NCBI RefSeq assembly: GCF_000317535.1
Contig: NC_019757.1
Span: forward strand, 2,744,501-2,808,500
Length of the DNA stretch: 64,000 nucleotides
Direction of reading: 5' to 3'
Source: Cylindrospermum stagnale PCC 7417
Lineage (GTDB): Bacteria; Cyanobacteriota; Cyanobacteriia; Cyanobacteriales; Nostocaceae
The notes beneath the pieces are model-generated. The model was not told the DNA's origin. It saw only the letters and a list, made by a program, of their open reading frames with translations, and did no database searches. Below, in pieces: positions 57,160-63,751 of the stretch. The position numbers were made by a program, and so were the translations under genes. Each line of letters opens with the position of its first letter. The stretch's first letter is position 1.

Positions 57160-58206
57160 TCAACCACTCCCAGGCACTACAGCCACGATCTTTTCCCCTT
57201 CGTCCACCGTTACCCGCGCCAAGCCAAATTGCTCAATTACGGCGGCATTTGTCGTTAAGTGGGTACTCACTTCAGCCACCCGGTATTGACTTTCCTGTGA
57301 GGCTAAAGCAGCGGGTAACAATAACTGATCTCCTAAATGTTCATCGACAGGTGCGCCGGTTTGATGAAACTTCAGCAACTGTTCACAAGCCATGTCTGCA
57401 ACCTTTTCCGCAGTCAAGCGCAACCGCCCCAACCCACCAAACCCAGCCAAGGAATTTTTATACTCTGCCGTTAAGAAAATACCCGCACCTGCTGCTACCC
57501 CTGTTTCTCGCAACGTTTGGACAGCAGCTTTTAATCCTGCTGCCGTTAACAAATTTTCGGCACGATTCGCCATTCGTTGGGGAATATGGGCAGGTAATTC
57601 TGTGACCACCGCTAGTCCCCGCACTCGCTGCAAATCTCCCCGTTGCAGCAAATTAATGCCTTCAATTTGACTACCACCACTAACAAGCAACTTTACTTCT
57701 CCCCCACCTTGGGGATGCCACCCCCAAGCGCCTAACTTAATTTTTGCATCTATACCCATGCGCTGCAACATCGGCAAATAAACTTGCTGAATATAGAAAA
57801 TTGTCGGGCTAAAGCTAACATGAGTTCCACCCCGTAAGGTTATCTGAGAATCACCTGTTGCTAAGGCTAAAGGTAAAAGGATGGTTTGTAAAATGAGCGT
57901 AACCGCCCCAGCGGAACCCATTGGTTGGGCTTCTTTGACATCAAAGGTGTAATTTCCTGCTTGTACAGAACTACTGGGGATGAATTCTAGCATCATTGAA
58001 CCCAAAGCATCACCCCGCAACTGGGCCTGGCAAATTCTCGCCGCAGCGCGAACTGAGGTGAGGTGTTGTGGTGCTAGTCCTGGTTTTGGGCGTCCGGCGC
58101 GGATGCCGGCTATGCGTATTGCATGGCCTGTGATGGCGGCTAGACTCAGGGATGTGCGGAGAATTTGTCCTCCTCCCTCTCCGTAGGAACCGTCAATTTC
58201 AATCAT
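57160..58206 (-). CDS. rtcA: RtcA, RNA 3'-terminal phosphate cyclase
   Basis: 348 residues, normal length. The N-terminus D-G-S-Y-G-E-G-G-G-Q-I-L-R-T-S-L is diagnostic, as are R-P-K-P-G-L-A-P-Q-H and the C-terminal P-V-D-E-H-L-G-D-Q-L with the nucleophilic His near 290 that carries AMP. The enzyme uses ATP to turn an RNA 3'-phosphate into a 2',3'-cyclic phosphate. No rtcB or rtcR is nearby, so it is not in the enterobacterial-type operon. Confidence 0.95.
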   Translation of the reverse strand: MIEIDGSYGEGGGQILRTSLSLAAITGHAIRIAGIRAGRPKPGLAPQHLTSVRAAARICQAQLRGDALGSMMLEFIPSSSVQAGNYTFDVKEAQPMGSAGAVTLILQTILLPLALATGDSQITLRGGTHVSFSPTIFYIQQVYLPMLQRMGIDAKIKLGAWGWHPQGGGEVKLLVSGGSQIEGINLLQRGDLQRVRGLAVVTELPAHIPQRMANRAENLLTAAGLKAAVQTLRETGVAAGAGIFLTAEYKNSLAGFGGLGRLRLTAEKVADMACEQLLKFHQTGAPVDEHLGDQLLLPAALASQESQYRVAEVSTHLTTNAAVIEQFGLARVTVDEGEKIVAVVPGSG

Positions 58207-58570: not shown

Positions 58571-58654
58571 TGCCATGTTCTGACAATAACCTCAAATTAG
58601 GCACTTAAGCAGGCAAAAGTTAGTCCACCCAACTAAATTGTTAAACCTCATGTT

Positions 58655-59125
58655 TTAGCTGAGTCTAAGTGTACATTCTAAAATCAATTTTTGATTTACT
58701 AGAGAATAGGGTTGAATTTTTAAAGCGCGCTGAAAAGCTTGGATAGCTGCACCATATTCTTTCAGTGCTGCATAACACAAACCCATGCCATGAAGCGCCC
58801 CAAAATGTACTGGATTTATTTGGATCACCATCTGACAATCCGCCAGAGATTTTTTATAATTGCCAATGCTGTAGTAGAGAAAAGCACGGCGATTCCAGGC
58901 TTCAGCAAAATCTGGTTGTTGTTGGATCAGTTCTGTAAGTAATTTCTCGGCTTCGGCAATTTCCCCAGCATCCAGCAATTTTTGACTATGATCAATTTTT
59001 TCTAGCCCATATATTCCCTTTTGCTGGAACCAAATCCGCCAGATTTTTCTGGTGGCTTGCTCACGAACTGAGACATCGGGATTTTTCAAGTCTTCAAGTA
59101 AGGAAGTGATAGATAAAGAATCCAT
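58655..59125 (-). CDS. TPR repeat protein, 156 aa
   Basis: The N-terminal 45 residues are helical with a conserved W-R-I-W. Three tetratricopeptide units then follow (about 50-150): A-G-E-I-A-E-A-E-K-L-L, F-A-E-A-W-N-R-R-A-F-L-Y-Y-S-I-G-N-Y, and F-G-A-L-H-G-M-G-L-C-Y-A-A-L-K-E-Y. Protein-binding adaptor by family; the partner is unknown. Its 5' end faces the URC operon promoter across 339 bases. Confidence 0.85.
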   Translation of the reverse strand: MDSLSITSLLEDLKNPDVSVREQATRKIWRIWFQQKGIYGLEKIDHSQKLLDAGEIAEAEKLLTELIQQQPDFAEAWNRRAFLYYSIGNYKKSLADCQMVIQINPVHFGALHGMGLCYAALKEYGAAIQAFQRALKIQPYSLVNQKLILECTLRLS

Positions 59126-59253
59126 GAATTTGAGATGGGTAAATGTATCTTCGGTTCAACTTTCGCACAAAATTATCTACTAAGTTAGGCTGAAAGTCAT
59201 CCTTGAGTTTTTCTAGAGCAATTGCAAATTAGACAATTGTTGTGTTATCTATT

Positions 59254-59295
59254 GTATTCAGTAATACTGTTATTACTACGATCAACGTCTAAAAT
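59254..59295 (+). promoter_or_regulatory. Canonical NtcA-activated promoter of the URC operon
   Basis: GTA (59254-59256), 8 bases, TAC (59265-59267), 22 bases, then TAAAAT (59290-59295). This is an exact GTA-N8-TAC-N22-TAN3T, the known class II architecture for NtcA activation, where the NtcA box replaces the -35. The expected transcript start is near 59302, leaving a leader of about 165 bases before the first gene. NtcA is the nitrogen-control CRP-family regulator of cyanobacteria, active when 2-oxoglutarate is high. The match is direct observation; regulation is inference. Confidence 0.8.
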
Positions 59296-59464
59296 CAGGA
59301 GCGATTGGTCATGCTGTATGGGTCGCGAAGCGAAATAAAGCATTTGAGAATGACTCTTTGCCAAAAGTCCCATAGAGCAGACACTTTTAAAGTTTAAAAC
59401 ACACTATTGGTAGTTGACAAATCCCTGGTGACTAATAGTTGATTAACACATAACAAAATAACAA

Positions 59465-60730
59465 ATGACTATGCCAAAGCAAAACAGCGTTTCCAGGCAT
59501 ATTGTGCTTACTTCCCATCCGAGTCGCTTTGGCCCGAAGCCGATCGCTATTCAATGGGGGGCAGCTGATCCGATGACACGGGGGCCGATTATTGCGACGC
59601 TGACTCAGCAGGGACACCGGAATGTAATTGGGACTCATTCTGGCAGTTATGCAGTTTATCGTGCTTTAGCTGTGGCTAGCGGGGCGCTACAATCGGATCA
59701 CCGGGCGGATCTGACTAATACATCACCGGTGGAGCATATTGGCCCTTATTCTAGCTGGGCTGACCCTGATAAAATTGTATCCCTTGATCCTTATGGGGCG
59801 ATCGCATCTGAGGTATTTGCTTCATATTACAAACAGGGCTATGATATCCGCCCGACAATCGCCATTACCAAGGCTCACATCAATATGCCAGAACTGCAAT
59901 ATGCTGTAGCTAAAGGGCGCTTGCAGGTGGATGGCAAGATTTTGAAGGCAAATGGCGATTTGGTCGTGACTAAAGCCGCTATTGAGCCAGTTTGGTATTT
60001 ACCGGGAATCGCCAAGCGCTTTGGCATTACAGAAGCCGAGTTACGCCGGGCTTTATTTGAACAAACTGGGGGGATGTTCCCAGAACTGGTAACACGTACA
60101 GATTTGGAGGTGTTTTTACCACCAATTGGCGGGTTGACGGTGTATATTGTTGGTGATTTAGAGGCGATCGCCGATCCAAGCAAACCTCTAGCGTTGCGGG
60201 TACATGATGAATGCAACGGTTCTGATGTTTTTGGCTCAGATATTTGCACCTGTCGCCCTTATTTAGCACATGGCATTGAGGTGTGTGTGCAAACAGCCCA
60301 AGCAGGCGGTGCGGGTGTAATTGTCTATTGTCGCAAAGAAGGCCGCGCCTTGGGAGAAGTGACGAAATTCCTCGTTTATAATGCCCGCAAACGTCAAGCA
60401 GGTGGCGATCGCGCTGATGCCTATTTTGCCCGGACAGAATGCGTCGCAGGTGTCCAAGATATGCGCTTTCAGGAACTCATGCCGGATGTGTTGCATTGGT
60501 TGGGAATTACTCGGATTGATCGCATGGTGTCAATGAGTAATCTCAAGTTTAACGCTATCACTGCGGCAGGGATTGAGATTGTCGAAAGAATCGCTATTCC
60601 TGAAGATTTGATTCCTGACGATGCACGGGTAGAAATTGAAGCTAAAAAGGCTGCTGGTTATTTCACTACTGGTGATGTGTTAGATGCTGATGGTTTGGCT
60701 GATTTGAAGGGGCGGGGATTAGATTCTTAG
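59465..60730 (+). CDS. urc1: GTP cyclohydrolase II-like protein, URC1 type (uracil catabolism)
   Basis: 421 residues; ATG at 59465 or 59471. The N-terminal about 200 residues are absent from ordinary RibA. The C-terminal half is the GCHII fold: H-D-E-C with zinc Cys C250-x10-C261-x-C263, then R-K-E-G-R-A-L-G, the counterpart of the Q-E-G-R-G-I-G loop with the catalytic Arg, and a late M-S-N-L-K-F in place of T-N-N-P-x-K. This is the URC1 form known from the yeast URC route, which acts on a pyrimidine nucleotide, not GTP, so riboflavin synthesis is unlikely. The URC4 gene begins 121 bases after its stop. Confidence 0.85.
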   Translation: MTMPKQNSVSRHIVLTSHPSRFGPKPIAIQWGAADPMTRGPIIATLTQQGHRNVIGTHSGSYAVYRALAVASGALQSDHRADLTNTSPVEHIGPYSSWADPDKIVSLDPYGAIASEVFASYYKQGYDIRPTIAITKAHINMPELQYAVAKGRLQVDGKILKANGDLVVTKAAIEPVWYLPGIAKRFGITEAELRRALFEQTGGMFPELVTRTDLEVFLPPIGGLTVYIVGDLEAIADPSKPLALRVHDECNGSDVFGSDICTCRPYLAHGIEVCVQTAQAGGAGVIVYCRKEGRALGEVTKFLVYNARKRQAGGDRADAYFARTECVAGVQDMRFQELMPDVLHWLGITRIDRMVSMSNLKFNAITAAGIEIVERIAIPEDLIPDDARVEIEAKKAAGYFTTGDVLDADGLADLKGRGLDS

Positions 60731-60851
60731 GGGGTTTCCCGCCCAGATTTGCTGTAGGGGTGGGGTTTCCCGCCCATTTTCGGTTGACAAATGGGGGTGA
60801 AGAGTGGAGATACGAACCGCCCAGACGCAGAGGACGCAGAGAGAGGGGGAA

Positions 60852-62048
60852 ATGATTGCATATCTTCGTTCGCCGGTGGCGATTCGGGAACGTTGTGGGG
60901 AGTTGTTTGAGTTGGTGGTTGAGGGTAAGTCGCGTCATTTTGTTTGCGATTTGACGCGGTTGGCAGGGGTGGCGGATTATGTGATTGAGGTGATGAGGGC
61001 GGAATACCCGGATTTACAAGTTCCTTTTCACAGTCGTTGGCGGCATTTTCAGGCTGGGGGTGTGCCAAGATTAACTGAGTTGAATGAGGTGTTGGCGGGG
61101 TTAACGCCTCAAGAAAAGGCTGCTGCTAAGTTTGATTTGGCAATTATCAGTGTTTTGTTGGATGCGGGGGCGGGGCATGATTGGCGTTATCATGAACAGG
61201 AGACTGGTTTGAGTTTTGGGCGTTCTGAAGGTTTAGCTGTTGCTAGTTTCCAGATGTTTTGTCAAGGTGCTTTTTCTGGTGAAGGGTGGCTGCAAGTCGA
61301 TGCTGAAAAATTGCAAGCGTTAACAGAATCAGAATTAGCAACTGGCTTTCAGGTAAATGCTGATAATCCTTTGGTGGGAATTTCTGGGCGGTTGAGTTTG
61401 TTGCAAAGGTTAGGTGAAGCTTTGGTGTCTGCACCTCATTTGTTTGGAGATGAAAACCCCCGTCCAGGAAATTTGGTAAATTATCTTTTGGGGAAAGCTG
61501 AAAATGGGCAGTTAGCAGCTACCACTGTATTTAGCGCCGTTCTGGAAGGATTGAGTGATATTTGGCCGGGAAGATTAGAAGTGGCTGGGGTAAATTTGGG
61601 GGATGTGTGGTTTCACCCAGATGTTGCTGATAATAATTTGGTGCCATTTCACAAGCTTTCCCAATGGTTGACATACTCTCTTTTGGAACCACTGCAAGAA
61701 CTGGGTTTAACAATCACTGGAAAAGATGCCCTCACCGGATTACCAGAATATCGTAATGGCGGTTTATGTCTGGATTTGGGGTTAATCAGCGCTAAATATC
61801 CTGAGATTTTGCACTCATCTCACTCGGTGGCATCAGAAATTATAGTTGAATGGCGTGCCTTGACGGTGATTCTTTTGGATTTGATTGCTGTTACAGTCCG
61901 CGACAAGTTGGGAATGAGTGCTGAAGAATTACCCTTAGTTAAAATCCTCCAAGGGGGAACTTGGACGGCTGGGCGGAAAATTGCTGCTGAACTTCGCACG
62001 GGTGGTTTACCCCCGATAAAAATAGAAAGCGATGGTACTGTATTTTAA
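60852..62048 (+). CDS. urc4: URC4-type (DUF1688) uracil catabolism protein
   Basis: 398 residues from ATG 60852, chosen because GAGAGGGGGA precedes it; an in-frame ATG at 60804 would translate a dispersed repeat (ACGCAGAGGACGCAGAG). The sequence shows the DUF1688 pattern: L-R-S-P-x-A-I-R-E-R-C at the start, F-H-S-R-W-R-H-F-x-A-G-G, D-A-G-A-G-H-x-W-R-Y and G-L-A-V-A-S-F near 110-150, and D-V-W-x-H-P later. URC4 is required for uracil breakdown in yeasts; its reaction is not settled. The gene sits between urc1 and upp, as expected for one pathway. Confidence 0.9.
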   Translation: MIAYLRSPVAIRERCGELFELVVEGKSRHFVCDLTRLAGVADYVIEVMRAEYPDLQVPFHSRWRHFQAGGVPRLTELNEVLAGLTPQEKAAAKFDLAIISVLLDAGAGHDWRYHEQETGLSFGRSEGLAVASFQMFCQGAFSGEGWLQVDAEKLQALTESELATGFQVNADNPLVGISGRLSLLQRLGEALVSAPHLFGDENPRPGNLVNYLLGKAENGQLAATTVFSAVLEGLSDIWPGRLEVAGVNLGDVWFHPDVADNNLVPFHKLSQWLTYSLLEPLQELGLTITGKDALTGLPEYRNGGLCLDLGLISAKYPEILHSSHSVASEIIVEWRALTVILLDLIAVTVRDKLGMSAEELPLVKILQGGTWTAGRKIAAELRTGGLPPIKIESDGTVF

Positions 62049-62054
62049 CTAGTA

Positions 62055-62130
62055 GTGCAGGCGTCTCGCCTGCACATAACTGCACATAACTGCACATAAC
62101 TGCACATAACTGCACATAACTACACATCAC
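62055..62130. repeat. Hairpin plus 10-bp tandem repeat between urc4 and upp
   Basis: A perfect hairpin GTGCAGGCG-TCT-CGCCTGCAC (62055-62075) runs into TGCACATAAC repeated five times exactly (62071-62120) and once degenerately (62121-62130). It lies just after the urc4 stop and could reduce read-through into upp. The TGCAC of the hairpin arm is also the first repeat unit, so the array probably grew from the hairpin. Confidence 0.9.
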
Positions 62131-62175
62131 TCTCGTGCCGCCTGTTCTAGATTTAATTAAATAAAATTCTCAAAT

Positions 62176-62811
62176 ATGTATAATCAAGTAATACTAATTG
62201 AACATCCATTAATTCAGCACAAACTCACGCTGATGCGAAAAGCTGACACCAGCACAACGAAATTTCGTAATCTTCTCAAAGAAATTAGTTTGTTGTTGGC
62301 TTACGAAGTAACGCGAGATTTGCCGCTGAAATATGAAGCGATTAAAACACCTTTAGCGCCGATGAATGCGCCAGTATTAGCACCTGATAAAAAGCTGGTT
62401 TTAGTTTCTGTGATGCGGGCGGGGCAAGGAATTTTAGATGGGATGCTGGAATTGATGCCAACTGCACGGGTGGGGCATATTGGTTTATATCGTGATCCGA
62501 AAACATTGATTCCAATTGAGTATTATTTCAAAATTCCTGAAGATGTGGAAAAGCGAGATATGTTGGTGGTAGATCCGATGTTGGCAACTGGTAACTCTGC
62601 TGTGGCGGCGGTGGAAAGACTAAAATCAACTAATCCCTTATCGATTAAGTTTGTCTGTTTACTCGCTGCACCGGAAGGGATTGAGCATTTCTGTGCTGTT
62701 CACCCAGATGTCCCACTATATACTGCGGCGATTGATGACCATTTGGATGAACATGGTTATATTATTCCCGGTTTGGGGGATGCAGGCGATCGCTTATTTG
62801 GGACAAAATAA
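62176..62811 (+). CDS. upp: Uracil phosphoribosyltransferase
   Basis: 211 residues, standard length. It starts with the typical [12 protein letters not shown] and has V-M-R-A-G-x-G for the diphosphate site, the PRPP loop [11 protein letters not shown] near 133-143, and the C-terminal uracil site [12 protein letters not shown]. It makes UMP from uracil and PRPP. In salvage this feeds nucleotides; in the URC route the same reaction is the first step. Its stop is 7 bases from that of the converging ABC permease. Confidence 0.96.
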
Positions 62812-62818
62812 TTAGTGG

Positions 62819-63751
62819 TTATTGCCGTTCGCCTTTAATGTAGGGAACGCCTAAAGCCTTTGGGGGTGTGGATTTGCCCGCTAACCCCACTAAGGCTAAA
62901 ATAGCGATCGCATAAGGCAACATGAGCAAAAACTGATAGGGAATATTTACACCCATTGCCTGAATTCGCAGTTGCAACGCTTCTGTCGCCCCAAACAGCA
63001 AACAAGCTAAACTACTACCTATAGGATGCCACCTACCAAAGATTAAAGCAGCGATCGCCATAAATCCTTTACCAGCACTCATCCCCTCGGCAAAAAATCT
63101 CACCTGTACTAAAGTTAAATAAGCACCCCCCAAACTGGCAAGACAGCCACCAATAATCACGGCGCCATAACGCACCAATGGCACTTTTACCCCAGATGTA
63201 TCAGCAGCTTGAGGATATTCCCCCACCGCCCGCAAGGTTAAACCAAAGCTGGTGTGAAATAAAATATATCTAGTTAAGGCAATTAACAGCAACAGTAAAT
63301 AAACAAAAATATCTTGTTGAAATAGCAGAGTTCCAATTAAGGGAATATCCGCCAAACCGGGAATTTTTATCGCCTCAATTCCTGGTAATCTTTGGGTGCT
63401 AGCACCGCTAAACACCAGCCGCGCCAAAAACGATGTCATCCCCGCAGCCAAAAGATTAATCGCTAACCCTGACACTAACTGATCAACAAGCAAACTGACA
63501 CTTAAAAAAGCATGAAGTAAACCCACCAAACCCCCAGCAATTAAGGCGGCGAACATCCCCAACCAAGCATTACCAGTGTAAAAGGTGGCAGCAGCGCTAG
63601 TAAAAGCACCAGTTAACAACATTCCTTCCAGGGCAATGTTTAACACCCCTGAACGTTCCGAGTAAAGTCCCCCCAAAGTGGCGAATGCTAGGGGTACAGC
63701 TAGATGTAAGCTAGCAATCAGGTAATCAGAGAAGAAGTTGAGGTGATTCAT
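62819..63751 (-). CDS. Nucleoside-type ABC importer permease (YufQ-like)
   Basis: 310 residues with about nine membrane helices. The family mark G-L-Y-S-E-R-S-G-V-L-N-I-A-L-E-G-M-L-L lies near residue 28-46, and G-x-G-F-M-A-I-A-A-L-I-F-G-R-W-H-P is near 225. This is the smaller permease of BMP/basic-membrane-protein nucleoside importers. It pairs with the permease encoded just upstream and is likely to bring uridine or other nucleosides into the cell for the URC enzymes encoded on the opposite strand. Confidence 0.9.
   Translation of the reverse strand: MNHLNFFSDYLIASLHLAVPLAFATLGGLYSERSGVLNIALEGMLLTGAFTSAAATFYTGNAWLGMFAALIAGGLVGLLHAFLSVSLLVDQLVSGLAINLLAAGMTSFLARLVFSGASTQRLPGIEAIKIPGLADIPLIGTLLFQQDIFVYLLLLLIALTRYILFHTSFGLTLRAVGEYPQAADTSGVKVPLVRYGAVIIGGCLASLGGAYLTLVQVRFFAEGMSAGKGFMAIAALIFGRWHPIGSSLACLLFGATEALQLRIQAMGVNIPYQFLLMLPYAIAILALVGLAGKSTPPKALGVPYIKGERQ

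Follow-up and report, generated by a model that had tools for sequence, protein, structure and literature searches.

The locus examined here raises the question of whether a conserved operator places a set of presumed uracil-breakdown genes under nitrogen control in the cyanobacterium Cylindrospermum stagnale PCC 7417. The window, i.e., the whole stretch of DNA that was analyzed (64,000 nucleotides; contig NC_019757.1, positions 2,744,501 to 2,808,500), contains the genes urc1, urc4 and upp in a row on the plus strand. A pattern search located the palindrome GTATTCAGTAATAC (GTA-N8-TAC) upstream of them, at 59254-59267, where it faces both urc1 and, in the other direction, a divergently transcribed gene encoding a tetratricopeptide repeat (TPR) protein of 156 residues with no assigned function (58655-59125, minus strand). 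The explanation preferred here, to which a probability of about 0.55 is given, is that the palindrome is an NtcA-type operator shared by the TPR gene and the urc genes, with urc as one of its clients. Judged from the sequence, control of urc by NtcA is likely, though not exclusive.

An earlier reading of the letters alone (the sequence-only reading) had described an exact match to GTA-N8-TAC-N22-TAN3T ahead of urc1-urc4-upp. The match is indeed exact, with zero mismatches over 59254-59295, and the gene families and their order are as described. Both features of a class II NtcA promoter are therefore present, a GTAN8TAC box and a TAN3T element approximately 22-23 nucleotides (nt) from it: the urc-side -10 element, TAAAAT, lies at 59290-59295 on the plus strand, 22 nt from the box. 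In class II NtcA promoters transcription starts approximately 41.5 nt from the box centre, and the urc-side start would be expected near 59302. Because the box is a palindrome, the window contains a second match to the 42-bp pattern, formed by the same box on the minus strand (59226-59267), with an exact N22-TAN3T facing the TPR gene; the TPR-side -10 element, TAATTT, occupies 59226-59231 on the minus strand and is also 22 nt from the box. This two-way orientation had been missed. The pattern itself stands, and its exclusive assignment to urc does not.

The sequence-only reading had named conservation of the box in relatives that keep urc1 as a check, and the box was well conserved. In a family sample of 217 genomes, urc1 was detected in 90 (E <= 1e-120) and the TPR gene in 180 (E <= 1e-40). 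Setting aside G106, G109 and G156 (fragments) and G180 (short contig) left 86 intact urc1-bearing genomes, 74 of which, from 32 genera, have GTAN8TAC within 420 nt of urc1. All 74 boxes read GTA-N6-AATAC. Alignment of 45 of these genomes places the box among the best-kept 14-mers of the intergenic gap (0.82, against a median of 0.68), and the box stays while many of the intergenic columns around it diverge. A broader set comprised the best 80 of a longer list of urc1 loci, 24 of them read as Nostocales and 56 as lying outside that order (43 cyanobacterial, 13 other). The box was found in 23 of the 24 Nostocales loci, a set that overlaps the 86 family genomes and was not added to their number, and within 600 nt of urc1 in only 1 of the 56 others (one locus having only 374 nt upstream). 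The latter count led to rejection of a general association of the box with urc1; the element is thus lineage-specific and, within its lineage, well kept.

The spacing of the -10 elements provides the second line of evidence. Across the 74 boxes, the genus-weighted frequency of TAN3T at a spacing of 22 was 0.42 on the urc side and 0.33 on the TPR side; the next best single spacing within 14-44 reached 0.08 and 0.10, respectively. In three-wide windows extending to 109 nt, the values at 22 were 0.58 (urc) and 0.51 (TPR), and elsewhere did not exceed 0.27 (urc, at 46) and 0.30 (TPR, at 97). In raw counts, TAN3T occurs at 21-23 in 39 of 74 boxes on each side: on both sides in 20, on the urc side only in 19, on the TPR side only in 19 and on neither in 16. 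The window and its genus mate (genome G040) have both. The 287 kb flanking the 24 Nostocales loci supplied 72 background GTAN8TAC boxes, of which 13 were one-sided and none was two-sided, either at 21-23 or at 20-24.

Results concerning the frequency of the pattern, the control promoters and the distribution of the box, presented here and in the following paragraphs, weigh against this explanation to varying degrees. The window contains two matches to the pattern versus 0.38 expected, a number reached in 9 of 100 shuffles; genome-wide, 49 matches were found versus 55 for a reversed control, i.e., there was no enrichment. Frequency alone, being at background level in both window and genome, was rejected as proof of the pattern, and the match is credible above chance because of its conservation in relatives and the TAN3T peak at 22. 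These frequencies are what would be expected of a chance palindrome common to relatives by descent, and the glnA promoters described below demonstrate that relatives can share a far-side TAN3T even when its spacing is non-canonical. Such a palindrome, however, would not be expected to persist in 74 of 86 genomes amid diverging columns, to be flanked by a spacing-specific -10 peak on both sides, or to be two-sided when 0 of 72 background boxes are, and this alternative is considered very improbable.

Established class II promoters were used as controls; those activated by NtcA include glnA, nirA, urtA and ntcB, as listed in the available part of PMC3898017. For glnA, the upstream regions of 29 loci (L295-L323) were compared; L324 was dropped from the original 30 because it fell below the cut-off. 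A box was present within 600 nt in 22 of the 29, and a gene-side -10 at 22-23 accompanied all 22, the window genome's own glnA included. On the far side, none of the 22 has TAN3T at 21-23, 17 have it at 20 and 2 have it at 24; with a window of 20-24 as many as 19 of the 22 glnA boxes appear two-sided. The far-side TAN3T at 20 indicates that conserved far-side elements can come from shared descent, which weakens the two-way reading, although the urc and TPR peaks both lie at the canonical 22. For urtA, a box was found in 12 of 23 loci, with a gene-side -10 at 22-23 in 10 of the 12 and a far-side one in none of the 12 at 21-23 and in one of them at 20-24. In the stretches read from the window genome, the ntcA region has GTAN8TAC without a -10 element and the urtA region has no GTAN8TAC.

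The urc/TPR boxes therefore share with the class II promoters compared here (glnA and urtA) the GTAN8TAC box, a TAN3T at 22-23 nt and the secondary positions seen in chromatin immunoprecipitation (ChIP) of NtcA. They differ in being two-faced at 21-23 in 20 of 74 cases, versus 0 of 22 for glnA (where the far-side TAN3T is often at 20) and 0 of 12 for urtA, and in their target, here a presumed pyrimidine-breakdown cluster. The argument from two-sidedness is suggestive, not proof. It invites a more specific proposal, which is put forward only tentatively: the operator may be a two-way nitrogen switch that drives uracil breakdown and the TPR gene jointly or alternately. Different lineages would then have retained either or both of its faces, and the TPR protein might take part in recovering nitrogen from RNA.

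Whether NtcA is the protein that binds the box was considered by comparison with the ChIP-derived consensus, which, in the portion of PMC3898017 available, has T/C at positions 4-5, A at 10-11 and A/T flanks. The window box agrees with this consensus at 3 of the 4 secondary positions of the core and at all 6 A/T positions of the flanks. The mean core score (maximum of 4) was 2.77 for the 74 urc/TPR boxes, 1.56 for the background (73 boxes), 1.91 for glnA and 2.25 for urtA; the corresponding flank scores (maximum of 6) were 4.91, 3.77, 5.55 and 5.17. As glnA itself attains a core score of only 1.91, this score is not very diagnostic; it separates the sets poorly, and the 74 boxes represent one homologous family. 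With this qualification, the urc/TPR boxes look like NtcA sites.

The genome encodes NtcA (383.6 bits, over the cut-off). Seven additional matches to the NtcA model are weaker and all fall short of the cut-off; these would be candidates if the box had no relation to nitrogen and were bound by some other dimeric regulator, for instance a different member of the CRP family whose site resembles GTA-N8-TAC. Consistent with this, AATAC is present in all 74 boxes, which is stricter than the NtcA core demands, and CTAC is the ending of most glnA boxes (14 of 22). However, the secondary positions resemble the NtcA consensus as given in the accessible part of PMC3898017, one urtA box, GTATTCTAGAATAC, is nearly identical to the urc/TPR box, and the -10 element lies at 22, as it does in glnA and urtA (22-23). 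A regulator other than NtcA is accordingly considered decidedly unlikely.

The distribution of the box bears on which of the two genes it serves. Of at least 90 family genomes that have the TPR gene and lack urc1, 55 were examined, and 21 of these have the box, in 19 cases at approximately 128-145 nt from the TPR start; a one-mismatch box was found at about the same place in 15 of the remaining 34. Box retention is therefore not strictly dependent on urc1, and a restriction of the box to urc1-bearing genomes was rejected; the raw contrast between 74 of 86 and 21 of 55 is confounded by lineage. The 21 boxes have a TPR-side -10 in 2 cases and a urc-side -10 in 6, so that no clear maintenance of either face is seen in the absence of urc1. 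Among the intact urc1-bearing genomes, 12 of 86 are box-less, including all five of genus g37, in which the box is broken, and the urc-side -10 at 21-23 is missing from 35 of the 74 boxes, including all 7 of genus g18 and all 4 of genus g42.

A sequence beside urc1 itself is also relevant. Alignment revealed a conserved block, TAGTTGACAaaT...TAATAgTTgATaAAA (TAGTTGACA...TAATAGTTGATAAAA), at 59410-59447 on the plus strand, which is a possible second promoter or operator and is kept in genomes that have no box. TTGAC occurs within 95 nt of urc1 in 11 of the 12 box-less and 51 of the 74 boxed genomes, and in approximately 6% of mononucleotide shuffles. No sigma-70-type -10 element was seen at the usual distance from the block, which may function as a basal promoter or be bound by a regulator that senses uracil. 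The sequence-only reading had taken the box for the NtcA promoter of urc. What survives of that claim is a conserved NtcA-type element; a dedicated urc promoter is contradicted by the equal facing of the divergent TPR gene, by the boxes in urc1-less genomes, by the boxes without a urc-side -10, and by the box-less genomes, nearly all with TTGAC by urc1.

These observations could also mean that the operator is mainly that of the TPR gene, on which NtcA would act, with urc1 a mere neighbour that has its own proximal promoter. The position of the box relative to the TPR start in urc1-less genomes, the 19 of 74 boxes with a -10 on the TPR side only, the retention of the urc1-proximal block without the box, and the longer distance from box to urc1 in several genomes are all consistent with this. 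It is opposed by a urc-side TAN3T peak at 22 that is as sharp as that on the TPR side, by an equal number of boxes (19 of 74) with a -10 on the urc side only, by the scarcity of the TPR-side -10 in urc1-less genomes (2 of 21) and by a separate conserved block near the start of the TPR gene. An operator belonging mainly to the TPR gene is thus judged unlikely, and an operator shared by the two genes remains the preferred explanation.

The block beside the start of the TPR gene (59155-59200, minus strand; AACTTTCGCACAAAATTATC as read on the plus strand) contains the best-kept 14-mers of the whole gap, the highest value (0.84) being found there and not in the box. It overlaps a sigma-70-like match, ATGACT-17-GATAAT, at 59200-59172; two such matches were found versus 1.2 expected, which is chance level. 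On the urc side, a stretch at 59313-59382 (plus strand) is mostly without counterpart among the 45 aligned genomes, with most columns near zero and a dozen partly aligned. It separates the predicted start site from the urc1-proximal block and lengthens the predicted urc1 leader. Extra sequence at this position is also found in the genus mate G040, and the gap between box and urc1 is longer in several other genomes. A search of 58600-62900 for known RNA elements gave no match up to E 1.

The genes downstream of the operator were assigned by domain and profile matches. Urc1 (59465-60730, plus strand) is a GTP cyclohydrolase II-like enzyme of the PRK07198 family with the domains GTP_CH_N and GTP_cyclohydro2; its close structural relatives, 7ej3 and 7eev, are both named GTP cyclohydrolase II. 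It scores 765.4 against PRK07198 (cut-off 403) and only 53.3 bits against the RibA model TIGR00505 (cut-off 205.85), and a separate frame in the genome is also GTP cyclohydrolase II-like (32% identity over query 237-378). Urc1 therefore need not serve riboflavin synthesis, and its identification as RibA was disfavoured. Urc4 (60804-62048, plus strand) is a DUF1688 protein for which the listed start is GTG at 60804 and an in-frame ATG at 60852 is also plausible; no solved structure related to it was found up to E 1. The upp gene (62176-62811, plus strand) encodes a uracil phosphoribosyltransferase of the Urc6 type. The gene set of the pathway, Urc1, Urc4 and Urc6, is thus present together, and the order urc1-urc4-upp is the same in 23 of the 24 Nostocales loci, the remaining one ending at a contig end. 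The three genes are probably expressed as one transcript; a terminator-like hairpin at 60758-60775, between urc1 and urc4, argues to the contrary, and such matches are no commoner there than in shuffles. A tandem repeat of ctgcacataa, in approximately five copies, is found at 62070-62130 between urc4 and upp.

The genome also encodes a urea-degrading enzyme, represented by the urease alpha subunit (175.9 bits, over the cut-off; only this subunit was looked at), and UrtA (527 bits, over the cut-off). With NtcA, urease alpha and UrtA all encoded, urea from the URC route could feed nitrogen metabolism, and use of nitrogen from uracil would be expected. In the mechanism envisaged, the single palindromic operator would serve each direction as a class II activator site, the -10 element of either side lying 22 nt away. 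Nitrogen shortage would raise 2-oxoglutarate; NtcA would then occupy the operator and bring RNA polymerase to either of its faces. Firing toward urc would increase Upp, Urc1 and Urc4, which, if the yeast model applies, would convert uracil to 3-hydroxypropionate and urea, from which urease would free ammonium. The conserved element beside urc1 would probably provide an NtcA-independent or uracil-responsive input. NtcA as the binder, the firing of both faces, and the direction and benefit of regulation would all follow from this scheme.

The closest parallels are in yeasts. In Lachancea kluyveri, uracil is broken down by way of URC1, URC4 and URC6, as stated in an excerpt of PMC7530994, and the urg cluster of fission yeast consists of the same three families, clustered and uracil-induced, in the part of PMC2174524 that was available. 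To the extent of these excerpts, L. kluyveri URC and Schizosaccharomyces pombe urg1-urg2-urg3 share with the present locus a GTP cyclohydrolase II-like protein, a DUF1688 protein and a uracil phosphoribosyltransferase. They differ in that the genes here form a bacterial gene row and are accompanied by urease (of which alpha was found), versus urea amidolyase in the yeast model. The yeast urg genes are, within the excerpt cited, induced by uracil, whereas the box here is nitrogen-control-like, and the role of the cyanobacterial cluster in uracil breakdown is a presumed one.

Bacterial parallels lie in regulation. The rut system of Escherichia coli differs from URC in its enzymes and its regulator. 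It is expressed under nitrogen limitation through NtrC according to the accessible portion of PMC10891134, and on that description it likewise represents pyrimidine breakdown under a general nitrogen regulator. In Mycobacterium smegmatis, pyrimidine catabolism genes rise under nitrogen limitation, as reported in the part of PMC4617892 available; the pathway there is a reductive one. A search of the open-licence PMC literature, which leaves most subscription journals outside, found no paper that treats cyanobacterial URC genes or their control by NtcA, and urc is likely a new NtcA target with an unusual two-faced layout. If so, this lineage places a URC-type pyrimidine route under its general nitrogen regulator, as E. 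coli does rut under NtrC, and RNA building blocks harvested when nitrogen is short would be a testable nitrogen source for these cyanobacteria. The locus would also offer a natural example of two divergent promoters fed by a single NtcA site, and lineages that retained only one side are available for comparison.

Downstream of the cluster, an ATP-binding cassette permease of the BPD_transp_2 family (62819-63751, minus strand; Pfam match) is convergent with upp, and a second BPD_transp_2-like permease frame lies beyond it, also on the other strand relative to upp, and extends past the window end. For both frames the best NCBIfam match misses its curated cut-off. The first permease has a homologue near urc in 14 of the 24 Nostocales loci, one of them at 40% identity only; that the substrate is a nucleoside is a guess. 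On the other side of the operator, an RNA 3'-phosphate cyclase gene (57160-58206) adjoins the TPR gene. It recurs upstream in several Nostocales urc loci, and is possibly a link to RNA turnover.

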